IMG/VR virus record: IMGVR_UViG_3300031626_000012
Coordinates: 1-29,615 of that record
DNA length: 29,615 nt
Source: a virus
Strand: one strand, 5' to 3'
Made by a program: the position numbers and the translations under genes. Positions 192 to 26,712 of the stretch are shown here, one piece after another (within the stretch, counting starts at the first letter, position 1; each line of letters opens with the position of its first letter). Below the pieces are notes generated by a model. That model did not search any database. It saw only the letters and a program-made list of their open reading frames with translations, and was not told the DNA's origin.

Positions 192-425
192 ATGGCTAAA
201 AATGACAAAACACCAATCACAGTCAACGACATCGAATACCTTGTTGAAGACATGACCGACGAGCAGAAAGTCCTGCTTAACCACGTCAACGATCTTGGCC
301 GTAAGCTGGACAATGCTCGCTTCAACATGGATCAACTTGCAGTGGGCCGTGATGCCTTCGTTGCACGCTTGGCTACTTCACTTGAAGCGCCAGAGGAAGT
401 CGAAGAAGCGGAAGTTGTAAACTAA
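192..425 (+). CDS. Small DUF6447-like protein
   Basis: A 77-residue acidic protein. The start at 192 (ATG) lies 7 bases after an AAAGGAGA ribosome binding site; an in-frame GTG at 189 is the alternative. The N-terminal part, ITVNDIEYLVEDMTDEQK, followed by a helical segment and an Ala/Leu-rich helix (VGRDAFVARLATSL), matches my memory of small phage proteins of the DUF6447 type (short beta hairpin, then a long helical hairpin). The last 13 residues are mostly Glu, Val and Ala. A second protein of similar plan is at 12572-12781 on the other strand. No function is known. It overlaps the next frame at TAATG (423-427). Confidence 0.7.
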   Translation: MAKNDKTPITVNDIEYLVEDMTDEQKVLLNHVNDLGRKLDNARFNMDQLAVGRDAFVARLATSLEAPEEVEEAEVVN

Positions 426-445
426 TGAAGCAAGAGAGTTGGCAT

Positions 446-694
446 ATGTCTAAGTCTGTACCCGCTACATTCATCCTAGCCATTGCTGTGCAAACAGTAG
501 GGCTGGTTTGGTATATGTCAACTCTCGACGCTACCGTTGAGACTAACGCCCGTGAGATTGCACGGCATGAGATAAGGATCAATGAAGTAGAGAAGACTGC
601 ACAGCTACAGGCAGTAATGCTTGGGCGTATTGATGAGAACATAAAAGCTATTCGAGATGCAGTGGACGCAATGAGAGAAAAGGCTGAAAAGTGA
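446..694 (+). CDS. Single-pass membrane protein with coiled coil (holin- or spanin-like candidate)
   Basis: An 82-residue protein with one N-terminal membrane segment (about residues 6-24, ATFILAIAVQTVGLVWYM) and a charged helix after it (residues 30-80) with heptad-like spacing, rich in Glu, Arg and Ala. This plan (short N-terminal tail, one membrane helix, coiled coil) is seen in small phage proteins placed near lysis genes (DUF7201-type), and would suit a holin accessory or spanin-like role. I chose ATG 446, which has AAGAGAG eight bases upstream; ATG 425 would add seven residues and overlap the previous stop. The next gene starts at GTG 691, overlapping this stop by four bases. Function is inferred from topology only. 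Confidence 0.6.
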   Translation: MSKSVPATFILAIAVQTVGLVWYMSTLDATVETNAREIARHEIRINEVEKTAQLQAVMLGRIDENIKAIRDAVDAMREKAEK

Positions 695-1251
695 TTCGTT
701 ATTTAACACTACTAGTATGTATCTTAATAGGCTCTGAGGTCTATGCACAAGTAGATGATACTATCTATACGGACTCAACCAGTACAGTAACATCAAGTGG
801 TAACATGGATACCACGGTTCGTAGCCCACCACCGTCAGCTATATCACCACAGATTAGTTCTGGTAATGGTGATCTCTGCACCATAGGTGTAGCAGGTGCA
901 GTACAAACTCAGATACTTGGTATCTCAGTAGGTAAAGTATATACAGAAGACAACTGCCTTCGACTAAAGAATGCCAAGACTATGTACGACATGGGCATGA
1001 AGGTAGCTGCAGTATCCGTTATGTGTCAGGATAAAAATGTCTGGCAGGCAATGATGGATGCAGGTACTCCCTGTCCCAAAGATGGTTTGATTGGTCAAGC
1101 AGCCAAGACTGCATGGGAGATGGAAGCTAACGAAGACCCTACACCTAAGATGGATGAAGGAATTATAAAAGGTATACTAAATGCACAAGACAATTCAACA
1201 ATTGGTATTGGTGCTGTCCTTGGTGTCCTTGGCCTCGTACTCTTATTCTGA
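691..1251 (+). CDS. Exported protein with signal peptide and C-terminal membrane segment
   Basis: A 186-residue protein starting at GTG 691 inside the stop of the preceding gene. Residues 1-19 form a clear Sec signal peptide (MIRYLTLLVCILIGSEVYA), then a Ser/Thr/Pro-rich linker (about 20-55), then a compact region with four cysteines (near 62, 94, 112 and 123) that may form disulfides in the periplasm, then a hydrophobic C-terminal helix (last 18 residues, STIGIGAVLGVLGLVLLF) that could anchor it. I recall similar proteins in other marine phages but know no function. It is the first of five consecutive genes for exported proteins. Its last 71 bases are also the start of the next gene in another frame. 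Confidence 0.75.
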   Translation: MIRYLTLLVCILIGSEVYAQVDDTIYTDSTSTVTSSGNMDTTVRSPPPSAISPQISSGNGDLCTIGVAGAVQTQILGISVGKVYTEDNCLRLKNAKTMYDMGMKVAAVSVMCQDKNVWQAMMDAGTPCPKDGLIGQAAKTAWEMEANEDPTPKMDEGIIKGILNAQDNSTIGIGAVLGVLGLVLLF

Positions 1252-2050
1252 GCCATACACCTATAGTACAACAGGCAATGCAGCAGCCAATGGTTTAAAC
1301 TGGTCTATGGGTGCAGTACTACCTTCGGTAACTGGGCTAGACATAAACGGGTTGATATACAGATACACTACCGTAAAGAATACCGAAGACGCCATGAAGG
1401 TACACGTAGGTAATCTTAATGCAAACGGCAGTGGTTACACATTCAGAGAGACAGACGATTGGTCAGGCGTACCAAGCAACACAATCACCAAGTCTTTCTC
1501 AATAGGTAACAGTCCCGCAACTAACTGGGGTAACGGATCAATAGAAGTTGAGGGAACTGGACAAATAACGGACGCTGTGGTAGTATATAGTTATAGAATA
1601 GATGAGTGCTATGACCCACAGATTAGCTCTGCCTGTCCCGGTTACGTAAAACCTGTACCAGTTATAGTAGAAGTAGATGTCTATGACGCTTTAGAAGATG
1701 ACACAGTAGCTGACGCACTAGACAACGACAGTAGTTTTAAATACGATGAAGATGGTAATCGTATAGTAGACGATGAAGAAGAAGAAAAAGAAACTAGACT
1801 TGAGATGGGTTTGACTGCCTCTGCTAATGCACTAACCATGATGAAAACTGCAGGTCAAGCAGACATTATAAACCAGATCAATCTACAAACTAACATAGCT
1901 ATGTATTATAACTCTACCATAAATGGTGGATACTACCAAGACAATAATTCCCTTGCCGATGCGAACTTACCCGACAATAAGAAAGCTCTAAGGAATAATC
2001 TGGCGCAACAATTACTGCACGAGAAGATGGTGCAGATGCAGTATAACTAA
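1181..2050 (+). CDS. Exported protein, unknown function
   Basis: A 289-residue protein with a Sec signal peptide at residues 1-23 (MHKTIQQLVLVLSLVSLASYSYS). The mature part starts with a region rich in Gly, Asn, Ser and Thr (about 24-160, probably beta-structured, with two cysteines in DECYDPQISSACPG), then a strongly acidic stretch (about 175-215, including DDEEEEKE), then a helical domain (about 215-289) ending in Gln/Asn/Met-rich helix. Thus it looks like a beta head joined by an acidic linker to a helical tail. The start overlaps the 3' end of the previous gene by 71 bases, so the signal peptide is encoded by the same DNA as that protein's C-terminal membrane helix. No family recognised. 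Confidence 0.75.
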   Translation: MHKTIQQLVLVLSLVSLASYSYSEPYTYSTTGNAAANGLNWSMGAVLPSVTGLDINGLIYRYTTVKNTEDAMKVHVGNLNANGSGYTFRETDDWSGVPSNTITKSFSIGNSPATNWGNGSIEVEGTGQITDAVVVYSYRIDECYDPQISSACPGYVKPVPVIVEVDVYDALEDDTVADALDNDSSFKYDEDGNRIVDDEEEEKETRLEMGLTASANALTMMKTAGQADIINQINLQTNIAMYYNSTINGGYYQDNNSLADANLPDNKKALRNNLAQQLLHEKMVQMQYN

Positions 2051-2061
2051 TGAGGATACTT

Positions 2062-2550
2062 ATGAAATACCCAATACTAATTCTATCTATGTGTGCTATG
2101 CCTGTACTTGCGGAAGTAAATATTATAGGTAACGTATCTGCCAAGTGTGTAATTCAAACTGACACAAGTGGTGTGTATGGAAACCCTACAGCCGACAAGC
2201 TAAGCACACTTGCAGCAGATGGAGGTATTGAACCTATCATCCGGTACGATGTAGCTATCGCAGACTACTATGAAGCTAAGATCACACACCCTAACTCATT
2301 CTCTTCGTCTCCTACACTGACAGATACAGTGGCATGGACAGGCGGAACCTCTGTGTCGCAAACATCTGACGCAGGTATGGCTGCGTATGACACAGCCAAA
2401 GTAACCTACGATAACGTTACTGTATTTGATCTTACTGTCGCAGGTTCTACTTGGTTTAGTACAGCTTCTACAGCTTCCTATGGCGTAAGTAAACCCTTTA
2501 CAGGTGGTACATATACAGCCATCGTTCAGGCAGAGTGCATTGCTAAGTAA
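2062..2550 (+). CDS. Exported beta-rich protein, possibly pilin-like
   Basis: A 162-residue protein. I chose ATG 2062 because GAGGA lies five bases before it and it gives a compact signal peptide, MKYPILILSMCAMPVLA; ATG 2050 would add four residues and overlap the previous stop. The mature protein is nearly all small and beta-forming residues (Thr, Ser, Val, Gly, Ala). It has one cysteine soon after the signal (C29, VSAKCVIQ) and one four residues from the end (C159, QAECIAK), placed where they could tie the first and last strands. The ending GGTYTAIVQAEC resembles the last strand of fimbrial or spore-coat-U-type subunits. That resemblance is visual and weak; a plain exported structural protein is equally possible. 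Confidence 0.7.
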   Translation: MKYPILILSMCAMPVLAEVNIIGNVSAKCVIQTDTSGVYGNPTADKLSTLAADGGIEPIIRYDVAIADYYEAKITHPNSFSSSPTLTDTVAWTGGTSVSQTSDAGMAAYDTAKVTYDNVTVFDLTVAGSTWFSTASTASYGVSKPFTGGTYTAIVQAECIAK

Positions 2551-2926
2551 AGCTACTCTTGTACTACTTGGCTGGGCATCTGCATTATCTGCACATGACA
2601 TGACACCAGCCTACCCAGAACTAAGACCGTCACATATTGCCGGGGTAGTGAAGACAAAGATGTCTCTGTTCAATGCACGTAGTGACGTTAAGTATTACCA
2701 AATAGAAGTATTCGATAGTGAGTGGGTTAACGTACCATTCTCAACTACATATCGCATACTAAAAATAGAACATAAAGAGCGCAAAGACTTTGATGTTTAT
2801 CTACGTAAAATAGATGTAGGACGTGCTGTATATTTGTGTACAACATCTAAGGTCAAAAAGATAAGTGGTGTTAATACACTAGTCTCTTCTCGTATATGTT
2901 CGAGGCTAGATGGAGGAAAACCATGA
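2540..2926 (+). CDS. Exported protein, possibly a pilus-chaperone-like Ig domain
   Basis: About 128 residues if started at TTG 2540, which gives a good signal peptide (MLSKATLVLLGWASALSA); the frame is open upstream to GTG 2504, so the start is uncertain. The mature part, HDMTPAYPELRPS then alternating strands such as TKMSLFNARSDVKYYQIEVFD, resembles the first Ig-like domain of PapD-type periplasmic chaperones (an N-terminal strand with Pro residues, then a strand holding an N-x-x-x-D pair and a Y-x-I-E-V strand). Usual chaperones have two domains and about 220 residues; only one would fit here. It overlaps the preceding possible pilin-like gene by 11 bases and the next by four (ATGA). Function is a suggestion only. 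Confidence 0.65.
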   Translation: MLSKATLVLLGWASALSAHDMTPAYPELRPSHIAGVVKTKMSLFNARSDVKYYQIEVFDSEWVNVPFSTTYRILKIEHKERKDFDVYLRKIDVGRAVYLCTTSKVKKISGVNTLVSSRICSRLDGGKP

Positions 2927-3357
2927 TCCCCAAGATAATAGTTTTTGGTCTGTGCATCTTCTTTTTGTGTATGAGTTTCTACGGTGTTGTAAAAGCAGAG
3001 AGTAGTTCTCTTGCACTACAACTACCAAGCCCACCTATGAACTATCAATCAGATAGATTCCGTGCAGGTAACTTAGATTGTTCTAATGCGGTAGGTGGTG
3101 CAACTAACTTAGAGTTTGGTGTAACTGGTGTAATGACTAACATCAATGACCGTACCGCAAAAGGTAAAGACATAGGCATATACGCACGTATCGTTATACC
3201 TCTGGATAAACCTAAGACTCGTGTAAACTGTGATGACTTGTTTCAAGTAGAGATGACGCACCGTAGACTAGAAATACAAATGTTACGTGCAGAACTGGAA
3301 CAGTTACGTCAGCTACAGGATGTAGGTAATAATACTGAGATGGAATTTGAGAACTAA
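2923..3357 (+). CDS. Exported protein with C-terminal coiled coil
   Basis: A 144-residue protein. ATG 2923 has GGAGG six bases upstream and overlaps the previous stop as ATGA, so I prefer it to ATG 2896. Residues 1-26 are a signal peptide or anchor (hydrophobic IIVFGLCIFFLCMSFYGVV, then KAES). The middle (about 30-95) has SPPMNYQSDRF, a cysteine in NLDCSN, and likely strands (LEFGVTGVM, DIGIYARIVIPLD). A second cysteine follows in RVNCDDLF. The C-terminal 45 residues (MTHRRLEIQMLRAELEQLRQL) form a coiled coil. Similar proteins occur in other marine phages, from memory, without a known role. A periplasmic or outer-membrane partner in lysis or in virion attachment is possible. Confidence 0.7.
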   Translation: MIPKIIVFGLCIFFLCMSFYGVVKAESSSLALQLPSPPMNYQSDRFRAGNLDCSNAVGGATNLEFGVTGVMTNINDRTAKGKDIGIYARIVIPLDKPKTRVNCDDLFQVEMTHRRLEIQMLRAELEQLRQLQDVGNNTEMEFEN

Positions 3358-3902
3358 TGACTGACCTGACCAAAGTTGCAGATAACATTGATGGTCTTGC
3401 AGATCGTGAGATCAAGGCAGGTGGTTTTAAGTTTACCTTCGCATCTATCTTTGCAATCTTTGCTTTCATATCTACGGTAGTTGGTGGTTTGTACGGTGGC
3501 TTTGTACTGTATCAAAAGATTGAAGAAGTAGCAGGACTAGACCTTGGTGCGTACCAACAACAGATGGATATCATGGACGCTAAGATGTCAGGTATCTCTG
3601 ATAAGGTAGAGGAAAGTGTAGAGTACTCTCGTGATATTAAGAACGGTCTGAAGGATGATATCCTACGTATTGAACAACAGACAGATCGTATTGAAGATAC
3701 AGTAAGAGCTATTGAAGACACTGTTGGCGCAGAGCTACGGGACACGGAAACAAAAGTACGTACAATGATTGATGATGCAGATGTACGCTTTGAGAACCAA
3801 CGTGATAGACTACGGGCTTCACAAGACATAGACATGAAAGACTTAGAAGACAGGCTTATGGCAAAGTTACAACGTGCTTTGGATAACCCACTAGCAGATT
3901 AA
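3357..3902 (+). CDS. Membrane-anchored long coiled-coil protein (holin/spanin-like candidate)
   Basis: A 181-residue protein with a short soluble N-terminus, one membrane segment (about residues 27-53, FTFASIFAIFAFISTVVGGLYGG), and about 120 residues of charged helix (IEQQTDRIEDTVRAIEDTV and similar), rich in Asp, Glu, Arg and Met, ending in a Lys/Arg/Leu helix. This is the plan of a membrane-anchored coiled coil, as in some spanin subunits and virus-encoded tethers. The start ATG overlaps the previous stop (TAATG). It is the last gene before a fresh promoter, so it closes the exported-protein block. No homology to a named family was recognised. Confidence 0.7.
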   Translation: MTDLTKVADNIDGLADREIKAGGFKFTFASIFAIFAFISTVVGGLYGGFVLYQKIEEVAGLDLGAYQQQMDIMDAKMSGISDKVEESVEYSRDIKNGLKDDILRIEQQTDRIEDTVRAIEDTVGAELRDTETKVRTMIDDADVRFENQRDRLRASQDIDMKDLEDRLMAKLQRALDNPLAD

Positions 3903-3910
3903 GTATTTAC

Positions 3911-3939
3911 TTGACACACTTATGGTAAGGCAGTATACT
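3911..3939 (+). promoter_or_regulatory. Near-consensus sigma70 promoter before the virion-protein genes
   Basis: TTGACA at 3911-3916 and TATACT at 3934-3939 are separated by 17 bases, the optimal spacing. They lie in the 69-base gap between the stop at 3902 and the ATG at 3972, and a transcript would start near 3946, with AAGGA (3957-3961) as the ribosome binding site. The match is the best in the window and indicates host RNA polymerase reads this block. Confidence 0.75.
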
Positions 3940-8107: not shown

Positions 8108-11100
8108 ATGGCTGACAAAGCAAGTGTACTAGACTTTCTTAGTGGGTATAACCCTGAAGAGGAAGAACAGAAAACGACTGCTCAACCAGAGCAAACAGCA
8201 CCTTCCGCTGATAGTGAGAGTGTGCTTAACTTTTTAAACTCCTACACAGAGGAACCGTCCGTAAAACCAAATGAAGACGCAGACTTAGTTGCCCCACCTC
8301 AAGAGTTAGGTGACACGGATTGGATGGTTCCAGTTGCCGATGATCCTAACGATACCTATGTAGAGCCTGTGTACGAGTATGAAGCAGGTGAGCGTCTAGC
8401 GGATGTCAAGGATGGCATTACCCAGATGGATGAGTACATGGCTACACTAAGCGACACAGAACGTGAAGAGTTTGAGGCTACTATATCTGAATCTATTGCG
8501 TCTGGTAACGGTATGCGTGACGCTAACTTCATGGACGTAGCAATGTCTGCGCTTCCTACAAGTTGGTTGCTTGGCATGGGTAACTTCTTCCAAAAGGCTG
8601 GGGCTATAACAACTGACGGTATGGAATCCGCCTTTTCTAGTTTAAATGATTTAAGTCCATCTGCATTTGAAACACTTGCAAGTGCAGTGACACTTGGTAG
8701 ATACAAAATAGATGATCCATCAGAGCTTGCTAACTTTATTGCCGATGGCGCAGGTGCAGCAGGTGAGTTCCTAGAGACAGTACCTGCCATTGGTAACATC
8801 CAAGGTGCGATTAATACTGCCGTGTCTACAGGTGCTAAAGTTTCCGCTAATGGATTATCCCGTCAAGTAATACGTGAAGCTAAGGCTACAGCACAGGCAC
8901 AACGTAACAATCCCGGTGGTGCAAGACTTGCAACCATGCTTAACATTGATGAGGCACAGGCACGTGCTGCAGATGTAGCGGCAAAGAACCGTGACATTGC
9001 AGATGATCTTATCCTAGAGTTTGAGAATGCTACGGGTAAGACTATATCTGTACAGAAGGGTGACAACCTAGAGATAGACACAGACCTGTCACGTCAGGCT
9101 GGCCTTGATACTGCTGAAGAAATTACAGAACGTGATGGTGCTTTGTTTGACTTGGACTTAGGTGACGACATGATTACGTCACCCATACTAAAGCCTGAAA
9201 AGTTTAATGGTATTGTAGCACTCGCATCTGATTACAAGGCTAGGTTTCCTGACGATTGGGACTCAAGTAAAACTGTAATTGACAACTTGTTTGAGTTGAC
9301 AGTAAACAAAAAGCTTGTGCCAGAGCAAGACTTGTTGGATGAGTTGAATGGCTACGGCCTATCCTTTGAAGACTACGTATTAACTGTAGTAGGTTCTGGG
9401 TCACAGGCTGGTAAGGTTCTTAATAAGCTATCACAAATAAATAGAATAAAACCTAAGAGCGTAGCAGAGGCAGACGCAGCAAAACGTGCAGCAAGAGATG
9501 CTGGTGAGTTCCGTAAGTTTGTCATGCGTATAGAGAATGTACGTAGGGGTGGCCTTGTGTCACAGATTGCTACGGCATCTCGTAACATGATGTCAGGTGG
9601 AATACGTGCTCCTATGGAAAGCTTAGGCAACGTAATGGATGACGCTATATACGTAGCTGCAGAGGCAGGTATCATGGCGGGTACTAAGCGACTATTCTCC
9701 CGTGAGAACTGGTCAGATAGTTTCGCTAACATGCGGTACATGTTCTCTCGTCCTGACTTAGCTGAAGGTTACGGTGATTTAATACTAGAACAACCAGAAA
9801 TGGCTAAACAACTTGACGCAATGTATAACAACATCAATGAGATACAGGCACTCACTGGTAGAGGCGGTGGTGGTGCAGTAGATAAGATACTGTCTGAAGC
9901 AGAGGATGCAGTTAGCTTTCTTAATACGCCTAACCGTTGGCAGGAATACTTGATACGCCGTGGTCAATACTTTGGTGAGCTTGAACGTCTTGTTCGCCGG
10001 GAGTATAAGATAGACTTGATTGATACGCTAAACGCTGGCAAGTTAAAAGACTTAATGAATGATGCATCTTCCGTTAGACCGAAGGGTGCGCCAAGTTTTA
10101 CTGCACTTGTAGATGAGGCTGTCACTAAAGCCCTTGACGTTACATACGCTAAGCAACCTGAGATACCTGTATTCCGCAGTGTGTCCCAGTTTATTGTACG
10201 CAATGGCTTAACTGTAGCGATACCGTTTCCACGGTTTATGTTCAACAGCATGGAGCTTATGGGTCAGTACGCAGGTGGTGCATCTATACCACTCACACGT
10301 AAGATGTCTAGCTTAGTAACTGGTGGACGGGTAGGTGGTGGCCCACTTACCTCCAAGGACAGACAACGTATCACACGTAACATGATGGGTATGGCTGCAG
10401 TAGGTGCAGCTTACTACATTCGTAGTGCAGATGATGCCCCAGCAGACTTTGAACAAATAGCTGTAGGTGAAGATGCACAGATGGATACTACCGCTGTATA
10501 TCCTATGGCTCAATTCTTGTACCTTGGTGAGATGGTTAAACGTATGATTGCTGGTATATTTGAAGAACGGTTTGACATGCAAGAGTTTGTTGAACTGTTC
10601 ACAGGCAGTAACTTCCGTACAGGTGTAGGTAACTCTGTTATAGAAGAGATCGCACAGATGGCAGACGCTACTGACTTGACTTCGGGTGAGGCAGCGGGAC
10701 GTGCCGTAGGCAGAACGCTAGGTAACTGGTTAGGTACATGGGCTGTACCCTTGGGTCAGATCATTGATGCTGAACGTGCAACAGGTGTACGTGGCTCAGA
10801 GTTCAAGGACGTATCCACTGACCCTACCCTTAGCTTCACTGGTACACTAGGTAAAGAAGTTACACGTAGTCTCAAGCAGCGTGGTATTGGTGTGTCACCA
10901 GAAGAAGATGCCGCTGCACCACGTCAGGAGTATCCATTCTACTCTGAAGGTAAGGAACGTTTGTACCCTTGGATGAAGTTTGGTGGTCTTACCATTACGA
11001 ATAAGCCAGACGAAGAAGGTGAGTACCTTAAACGACTAGGCTTTAATTGGAGAGACTTTGGTAGCCGTAGTAAAGTACCAAGTATCAAACGCTTTGAACA

Positions 11101-11482
11101 GAGTATGGTCAATGGTTTCATGCCTACTCTGGTTGATGTTGCACAGGATCAAGAGGTCCGATTGCGTAGTGAGTATCGCAGTGCGTCAGATAAAGTAAAA
11201 GAAACATTTACTGAAGAAGAGTTCGTTACCAATAAGCTACGCCCACTTGTGTCTGCTCAACTACGTAAGTTTAAAACTAAGATACGTGACGGTGCAATTG
11301 CACAAGGTGATGCCTATGCTAGAGCAATGACTAAGTATCGTAGAGTAGCGCCAGACTATCGTAGGTTAGCTACTACAGATTTTGTAGATAGATACGGTAA
11401 ATCACCCGACCCTATGGATGAAGGTGACTTGAACGTTTTAATAAAAATAGCTGAAGGATACAGAGAATCCTTTAGTCAATAA
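8108..11482 (+). CDS. Very large virion-type protein (probable internal/ejection protein)
   Basis: A 1124-residue protein, the largest in the window and the last of the plus-strand block. The acidic N-terminus holds a duplicated short motif, SVLDFLSGY (residues 6-14) and SVLNFLNSY (38-46), 32 residues apart. The body is mostly helical, with Ala/Gly-rich amphipathic stretches (ADGAGAAGEFLETVP), a basic, hydrophobic stretch at about 695-735 (VAIPFPRFMFNSMELMGQYAGG), and a likely membrane-active helix (MMGMAAVGAAYYI). The C-terminal 100 residues are very basic. Size, position and helical character recall the largest ejection protein of T7-like phages (gp16), but no lytic transglycosylase motif was found. 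A terminator follows five bases after its stop. Confidence 0.75.
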   Translation: MADKASVLDFLSGYNPEEEEQKTTAQPEQTAPSADSESVLNFLNSYTEEPSVKPNEDADLVAPPQELGDTDWMVPVADDPNDTYVEPVYEYEAGERLADVKDGITQMDEYMATLSDTEREEFEATISESIASGNGMRDANFMDVAMSALPTSWLLGMGNFFQKAGAITTDGMESAFSSLNDLSPSAFETLASAVTLGRYKIDDPSELANFIADGAGAAGEFLETVPAIGNIQGAINTAVSTGAKVSANGLSRQVIREAKATAQAQRNNPGGARLATMLNIDEAQARAADVAAKNRDIADDLILEFENATGKTISVQKGDNLEIDTDLSRQAGLDTAEEITERDGALFDLDLGDDMITSPILKPEKFNGIVALASDYKARFPDDWDSSKTVIDNLFELTVNKKLVPEQDLLDELNGYGLSFEDYVLTVVGSGSQAGKVLNKLSQINRIKPKSVAEADAAKRAARDAGEFRKFVMRIENVRRGGLVSQIATASRNMMSGGIRAPMESLGNVMDDAIYVAAEAGIMAGTKRLFSRENWSDSFANMRYMFSRPDLAEGYGDLILEQPEMAKQLDAMYNNINEIQALTGRGGGGAVDKILSEAEDAVSFLNTPNRWQEYLIRRGQYFGELERLVRREYKIDLIDTLNAGKLKDLMNDASSVRPKGAPSFTALVDEAVTKALDVTYAKQPEIPVFRSVSQFIVRNGLTVAIPFPRFMFNSMELMGQYAGGASIPLTRKMSSLVTGGRVGGGPLTSKDRQRITRNMMGMAAVGAAYYIRSADDAPADFEQIAVGEDAQMDTTAVYPMAQFLYLGEMVKRMIAGIFEERFDMQEFVELFTGSNFRTGVGNSVIEEIAQMADATDLTSGEAAGRAVGRTLGNWLGTWAVPLGQIIDAERATGVRGSEFKDVSTDPTLSFTGTLGKEVTRSLKQRGIGVSPEEDAAAPRQEYPFYSEGKERLYPWMKFGGLTITNKPDEEGEYLKRLGFNWRDFGSRSKVPSIKRFEQSMVNGFMPTLVDVAQDQEVRLRSEYRSASDKVKETFTEEEFVTNKLRPLVSAQLRKFKTKIRDGAIAQGDAYARAMTKYRRVAPDYRRLATTDFVDRYGKSPDPMDEGDLNVLIKIAEGYRESFSQ

Positions 11483-26319: not shown

Positions 26320-26712
26320 CTATTCATAAAACTTATGTGATCCATATGTCACACGATACTTGAGTGACTTAGCCCAATAGGGCTTGACATACAGGGCATG
26401 ATAGTGTGTCGAGCCATCGGTCATGTCAGGTACACGCCCCGACAACACATCGTCAGCTATAATCATGGCCCTTGCCCATGCTACTTTTTCACGGGGTGTG
26501 TCGGATTTACCGTCACAGTGCCAGCTAAATTGACAGCGGTGCTTACCCTTATGATACCCCTGATGTACTACAGAACATACATCGTCAGGCCAACTGTCAT
26601 GCTGCACCCTGTTGATGACAACTTGGGCTACTGCATACTGCCCAACGATAGGGTCACTACGTGCTTCGTGGTATACGTTAAGTGCTAGACACACCAATGC
26701 TGTTGCAATCAT
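26320..26712 (-). CDS. SleB/CwlJ-type cell wall hydrolase (endolysin candidate)
   Basis: A 130-residue hydrolase of the Hydrolase_2 family that would cut peptidoglycan. The catalytic Glu is E16 in LNVYHEARSDPIVGQYAVAQVVINRV, followed by CQFSWHCDG and ARAMIIADDVLSG, then THYHALYVKPYWAKSL, all family features. The first residues (MIATALVCLALNVY) are hydrophobic, but the catalytic motif follows so closely that a removable signal peptide is unlikely. It is unusual that it is in the early/middle block and not beside the late genes; lysis timing might depend on a holin encoded elsewhere. ATGA overlaps the stop of the 37-residue gene upstream. Confidence 0.92.
   Translation of the reverse strand: MIATALVCLALNVYHEARSDPIVGQYAVAQVVINRVQHDSWPDDVCSVVHQGYHKGKHRCQFSWHCDGKSDTPREKVAWARAMIIADDVLSGRVPDMTDGSTHYHALYVKPYWAKSLKYRVTYGSHKFYE

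Follow-up and report, generated by a model that had tools for sequence, protein, structure and literature searches.

In the chaperone-usher pathway (FimC/FimA, Caf1M/Caf1, CsuC/CsuA-B), the periplasmic chaperones consist of two Ig domains and an interdomain cleft with an R8/K112-type anchor, and the FGL chaperones carry a disulphide between strands F1 and G1 (PMC4133393). In archaic pilins, an N-terminus of alternating hydrophobic residues acts as the donor strand, and the archaic pilin CsuA/B polymerises with only its chaperone present (PMC4654587). Among phages, pelagiphages carry curli cassettes (type VIII secretion system; PMC7029224, PMC9599517, PMC9004378). Here we describe a six-gene cassette, P1 to P6, from the IMG/VR virus record IMGVR_UViG_3300031626_000012 (positions 1 to 29,615; this whole stretch of 29,615 bases is called the window). 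Our preferred reading, held with about even confidence, is that P1-P6 form a late, Sec-exported envelope-assembly cassette that would rework the host envelope shortly before lysis by donor-strand assembly without an usher.

The nearest described parallel is phage curli, which likewise forms a multi-gene, exported envelope cassette of conserved order that has moved between phage types. Unlike it, P1-P6 contains no CsgG, CsgF or CsgA-B, a candidate pilin and chaperone take the place of amyloid, and the gene set and order are different. With the chaperone-usher pathway the cassette shares a PapD-type domain 1 in P4, a putative N-terminal donor strand with its glycine and a glycine at position -14 in P3, signal peptides and adjacent genes. 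It differs in having no usher, a one-domain chaperone, a penultimate alanine instead of tyrosine and no usable Pfam or NCBIfam match, in being located in phages, and in its partners P1, P2, P5 and P6, which have no characterised relatives. P3 and P4 are variants of known protein kinds, and the cassette as a whole is, as far as can be told, undescribed. The literature searched, which covered few subscription journals, held no mention of a phage-encoded pilin, which is weak evidence of novelty.

Organisation, export signals and distribution of the cassette

The genes follow one another on the late strand as listed here.

691..1251, plus strand: P1, GTG start; signal peptide, S/T-rich linker, four-cysteine domain and C-terminal hydrophobic tail anchor (alignment)
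1181..2050, plus strand: P2; a beta-rich N-terminal domain follows the signal peptide, then an acidic spacer and the conserved C-terminus NNLAQQLLHEKMVxxQY (alignment)
2062..2550, plus strand: P3, candidate pilin-like subunit (motifs, AlphaFold model, weak Foldseek matches, homologue pVp-1_0077)
2540..2926, plus strand: P4, TTG start; predicted one-domain PapD-like periplasmic chaperone (AlphaFold and Foldseek)
2923..3357, plus strand: P5; signal peptide, donor-strand-like mature start, two invariant cysteines and C-terminal amphipathic helix (alignment)
3357..3902, plus strand: P6; anchored in the membrane at its N-terminus, with a long coiled coil and an invariant C-terminus, KLQRALDNPLAD in the window (alignment)

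Neighbouring genes overlap by 71 bp (P1/P2), 11 bp (P3/P4), 4 bp (P4/P5) and 1 bp (P5/P6), with a gap of 11 bp before P3. Among 156 loci, the P1/P2 overlap is 71 bp long in 84, and in 154 the two genes stand in the same relative frame; a single DNA stretch is read in two frames, once for the hydrophobic P1 tail and once for the P2 signal peptide. Across loci these overlaps span 62-83 bp, the one in the window lying at 1181-1251.

Export signals were assessed with a purpose-made rule, distinct from SignalP, that combines n-region charge, an 8-residue hydrophobic core and an A-x-A-type site; it was run in the same form on every gene of the retrieved contigs, and some N-terminal membrane anchors trigger it too (90 of 136 for P6). 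The rule was passed by 96-100% of family members (P1, 150/152; P2, 152/158; P3, 142/142; P4, 140/143; P5, 138/140) against 170 of 1583 (10.7%) other open reading frames on the same contigs, where no run of five or more positive genes occurred outside the cassette; a chance run of signal peptides was rejected on these grounds. Typical A-x-A cleavage sites recur across divergent members, such as SLYA|QDE in P1, PALA|NVD in P3 and SALSA|HDM in P4, and in P1-P5 of the window no lipobox was seen, the sites being of the signal peptidase I type. The initial annotation had described five consecutive Sec-exported proteins (genes at 691, 1181, 2062, 2540 and 2923) as an uncommon run in a phage, an observation that is confirmed. 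Its block ended with P5 (691-3357); these five genes are open and tightly coupled, and the conserved unit also takes in P6.

Scans with P3, P2 and P1 yielded 66, 24 and 80 loci, to which three bacterial-genome contigs were added. P1-P6 are complete and in the same order in 123 loci (IMG/VR or genome), contig ends cut 47 more, and no exception to the order was found. Mean pairwise identities of the six proteins across loci are 46-62%, with minima of 18-42%, and the distance matrices of P1-P6 correlate with one another (r 0.73-0.89). P1-P6 is one cassette. Relatives of P1 were confirmed in at least 590 IMG/VR stretches. The structural genes flanking the cassette in the window are not common to the other carriers, which have a different major head protein, a lambda-J-like tail protein, or contigs of 101, 173 and 219 kb; therefore, the cassette travels between phage types. 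Against phages, neither megablast nor tblastn of P2, P3 and P4 from the window gave a match, P1-P6 had no usable counterpart in Pfam or NCBIfam, and a sequence-profile search of the PDB gave none. The three bacterial-genome contigs (L103-L105) are matches to metagenome-assembled genomes (MAGs) and possibly misbinned phage contigs, so the host cannot be read from them.

The P3, P4 and P5 proteins

The P4 model, built from an alignment of 35 members, has a pLDDT (predicted local distance difference test) of 85. Searched against the PDB with Foldseek it gave 30 matches at E <= 1e-3, of which 29 are chaperones of the chaperone-usher pathway (FaeE, FimC, Caf1M, SafB, DraB, SfaE; E about 1e-4, probability 1.0, TM score about 0.5-0.6), and the remaining one is the MSP domain of human VAP-A, of the same fold class. 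The predicted fold thus supports P4 as a PapD-type chaperone domain. The mature protein, of about 110 residues, ends just after strand G1, and for this reason P4 is taken to comprise domain 1 only. Cys100 and Cys120 are located in the last two strands, a placement that matches the disulphide between F1 and G1 in FGL chaperones. In the last strand (118-122, RICSR) and the preceding loop, V115- and I119-type residues are conserved, as are Ser117 and Ser121. Residues 98-104 were at one point considered as strand G1, a candidate that was dropped because DSSP puts them one strand earlier, in the strand before the last. As a separate observation, all P4 members of the window type have a histidine directly after the predicted signal peptide (AHEMTP..., at about 2594 in the window), like some copper-binding proteins with an N-terminal histidine.

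The mature N-terminus of P3 reads V-x-I-x-G-x-V-x-[AS]-K-C. Positions 19, 21 and 25 (V19, I21, V25) are hydrophobic in 87-100% of members and alternate with polar residues, as in the donor strand of archaic pilins, and Gly23 is present in 102 of 102 sequences. Toward the C-terminus, Gly -14, Tyr -12, Ala -6 and Cys -4 are invariant and the last strand alternates; Cys29 and Cys159 are invariant as well. A conserved donor-strand glycine and Gly -14 are hallmarks of pilins. Gly -14 is present in 100% of members but the penultimate residue is alanine in 95%, not tyrosine, so half of the C-terminal beta-zipper motif of pilins is represented. The AlphaFold model of P3 is beta-rich (pLDDT 86), with residues 1-28 at low confidence and poorly placed. 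Its Foldseek matches are a mixture of Sdr/Clf adhesins and pilin proteins, and the latter (the PapG pilin domain, CfaB, FimG, FimF and CsuA/B) reach no better than E 4e-3 to 3e-2; a fold search in BFVD was uninformative. The motifs therefore lead the interpretation of P3 as a pilin-like subunit, with weak structural support. The initial annotation had hinted at a pilin in this 162-residue protein and at a one-domain PapD-like protein in the next gene; the former is borne out by motifs and weakly by fold, the latter by fold.

The mature N-terminus of P5 reads S-L-x-L-x-L-P, with L30, L32 and L34 conserved in 95-97% of members and P35 in 100%. By its sequence, P5 would have a strand to donate and shows no recognisable pilin domain to accept one.

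Separable modules and their genomic surroundings

A divergent P5 (locus L173) matched 181 Vibrio phage records and opened a wide link to these phages. The P3, P4 and P5 proteins of the window match PHROG 25895, 25455 (weakly) and 37374, which correspond to pVp-1 0077, 0078 and 0079; in profile comparison between window and Vibrio families, E was 1e-7 for P3, 7.5e-6 for P4 and about 1e-22 for P5. The pVp-1 homologues of P3 and P4 match 179 records each, all of Vibrio, and a viral-contig scan with the Vibrio P3 returned no relatives. Like the cassette, pVp-1_0077-0079 and Ceto_145-147 comprise homologous P3-P4-P5 in the same order with signal peptides. In the T5-like phages pVp-1 and Ceto, the genes after the trio encode a small lipoprotein-like product, a 69-aa protein, a holin and an M15 endolysin. 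Unlike the cassette, the Vibrio trio comes with no detected P1, bears the small lipoprotein-like gene and the 69-aa protein after it, and is annotated as hypothetical or of unknown function. The small gene after P5 (L188:6287-6445, L185:7242-7445) has a lipoprotein-like xISGC, and its mature start, C-T-F-N-F-T-I, alternates like a donor strand. Phage VF16 (L187:5812-6372) has lost P3 and P4, which makes this pair dispensable in VF16, and its P5 is joined to the C-terminal portion of a different protein. No P1 was found in five Vibrio phages and no P5 in the pelagi- and roseophages carrying P1. P3-P4-P5 and P1-P2-P6 are two separable modules.

Within the second module, the conserved four-cysteine domain of P1 (about residues 61-150, containing MGMKVAAVSVMCQD...AGTPCP) is known only as a PHROG family without assigned function, and the C-terminus of P2 resembles HTVC115P gp53 (hhalign E 1e-4, probability 57). 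The motif NPL within the last 10 residues was found in 130 of 130 P6 proteins against 3 of 1631 other genes. At ten distant loci that have a P1 relative, exactly one open reading frame per locus ends in NPL and encodes a small transmembrane (TM) coiled-coil protein shortly after P1, and P1 and P6 with a P2-like gene between them occur in pelagiphages and roseophages. P6-like NPL proteins near P1 relatives were located at L002:8700-9128, L003:2844-3170, L005:7990-8349, L101:3915-4313, L006:7369-7791 and L007:3292-3873, in pelagiphages, the pelagimyophage Mosig and roseophages. The lysozyme labels of CRP-810 gp51 and CRP-207 gp73 are probably wrong, both proteins having the P6 layout and NPL tail. 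A relationship of P6 to ZorA was considered and set aside, the similarity lying below the cut-off and being driven by the coiled coil.

Gene neighbours were counted within 4 kb in the 105 loci with sequence beyond P6. Downstream, we identified a gene for an EF-hand protein with two TM segments in 79 loci, a holin-type gene with three TM segments in 57 (the sum of two clusters, in which a few loci are possibly counted twice) and a GH19 endolysin in 54; upstream neighbours were mostly tail-fibre and small TM genes. The EF-hand protein is possibly a calcium-linked holin; it has 105-110 aa and a two-helix membrane hairpin (L044:7803-8129, L089:8160-8486), and in the window its gene is not beside P6.

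The product of 8108-11482 in the window, a structural protein, shares 59% identity with Roseobacter phage CRP-345 and 50% with Puniceispirillum phage HMO-2011; on this sequence resemblance the window phage is an HMO-2011-type podophage, in line with the late-gene region of a phage named in the initial annotation, and its host is probably an alphaproteobacterium. The whole genome of CRP-345 contains no relative of P1 or P5, and only small genes are situated at the place corresponding to the cassette. Two further features border the cassette in the window.

425..694, plus strand: small coiled-coil protein with N-terminal TM segment, directly 5' of P1; weak match to an Rz-like spanin (PHROG 739, lysis, E 4e-4)
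3911..3939, plus strand: promoter-like site TTGACA-17-TATACT (11/12, consensus scan), directly after P6 and before the next structural gene

Whether the gene at 425..694 belongs to the cassette is uncertain. The promoter-like site is the top match in the first 6.5 kb, a region whose total of matches is not above that of shuffles, and its position suggests that it may mark the boundary of the unit.

Proposed role and alternative explanations

In the assembly we propose, P4 would keep P3 in its folded state in the periplasm, subunits of P3 would join one another via their N-terminal strands, and P5 would cap or anchor the P3 chain, the whole forming without an usher, either within the periplasm or at the outer membrane. 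Such usher-less linkage is possible in principle, since CsuA/B self-assembles with its chaperone alone. P1, P2 and P6 would constitute a second, separable complex in which P6 spans the periplasm from the inner membrane, its NPL tail serves as a docking motif and P2 is the exposed part; this inner-membrane-anchored complex would join the assembly of P3 and P5 chaperoned by P4, the whole being made late. The most likely benefit would be surface masking or superinfection exclusion, followed by assistance in breaching the outer membrane; we give masking or exclusion a slight edge over a lysis role, since annotated spanins persist near the remnant trio of VF16. The envelope targeting suggested by the initial annotation agrees with the family-wide signal peptides, the AlphaFold/Foldseek results and the conserved motifs.

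Several observations weigh against usher-less donor-strand assembly. No domain 2 is present in P4 by alignment or AlphaFold model, and alternating hydrophobic residues are few in its last strand, so that the classic donor motif is not clearly represented. P3 had no Foldseek match in the PDB at E <= 1e-3, its fold matches being weak and mixed. The usher (PF00577), which is the usual outer-membrane pore for pilins, was absent from 27 of 27 phage records, with a positive E. coli control, and among 150 genomes of the family to which the MAG holding L103 belongs, 7 have an usher; with no usher in the records and few in the candidate host family, surface display would have no known route. For this candidate host family, the same count makes hijacking of a host usher unlikely as the principal explanation. 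In pVco-14 and K251, the trio is situated between capsid and neck genes rather than lysis genes, and in the window the genes directly after P6 are structural, the cell-wall hydrolase being encoded away from the cassette at 26320-26712.

The cassette could instead be a lysis accessory that breaches or weakens the outer membrane; P6 would then play the part of an inner-membrane spanin, and its exported partners would sit at the outer membrane. Holin or endolysin genes lie directly downstream in most loci, the neighbours of P1 and P6 in pelagiphages include an M15 peptidase and a lysozyme, and the layout of P6 fits the inner-membrane subunit of Rz/Rz1 spanins, with an N-terminal TM segment, a long coiled coil predicted to be periplasmic (by the charge rule only) and a conserved C-terminal tail. 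We nevertheless consider this unlikely: a spanin needs neither pilin nor chaperone, the cassette has no Rz1-like lipoprotein partner, in keeping with the missing lipobox in P1-P5, and no convincing sequence match to spanins, and VF16, a relative of the trio carriers that is devoid of P3 and P4, encodes a coiled-coil TM protein along with a lipoprotein annotated as an Rz-like spanin. A surface fibre or adhesin that aggregates host cells, like the 'sibling capture' proposed for phage curli, would account for the pilin-like P3 with its donor strand, and pelagiphages are known to carry phage curli cassettes (PMC7029224, PMC9599517); it is improbable, with neither usher nor CsgG in the records searched and no known route to the surface. 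The curli reading itself was rejected for the cassette: CsgG (PF03783) was found in 0 of 29 records, with four positive control genomes, and no CsgF, CsgG or curlin Pfam model matched P1-P6 at E <= 1. Of the interpretation in the initial annotation, envelope targeting, the pilin-like subunit and the PapD-like chaperone are supported, and the link to csgF/csgG export is not. Very improbable, in our view, is that P3-P5 (or P2) are virion proteins that decorate particles or tail fibres after lysis. Tail-fibre genes often lie upstream, the Vibrio trio follows a large fibre-like gene common to T5-like and K251-like phages (31% over 780 aa), and the trio's position in pVco-14 and K251 would also fit; tailed virions, however, assemble in the cytoplasm, and the cleavable Sec signal peptides are family-wide. 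A search for virion proteomics of a carrier phage returned none.

More broadly, and as a tentative proposal that we rate somewhat below even, hundreds of marine phages, and with them about 180 Vibrio phages in culture, may build an usher-independent donor-strand filament or lattice in the host envelope just before lysis, from P3, P4 and the terminator or anchor P5, often coupled to the P1-P2-P6 NPL complex, which would be an undescribed kind of structure. If usher-less donor-strand assembly is true, phages would have adopted the chaperone/subunit chemistry of pili and made it work without an usher, in a widespread, uncharacterised cassette of marine phages. It would also provide a function hypothesis for three PHROG families of unknown function; these occur in about 180 Vibrio phages in culture, whose laboratory hosts make the hypothesis directly testable.

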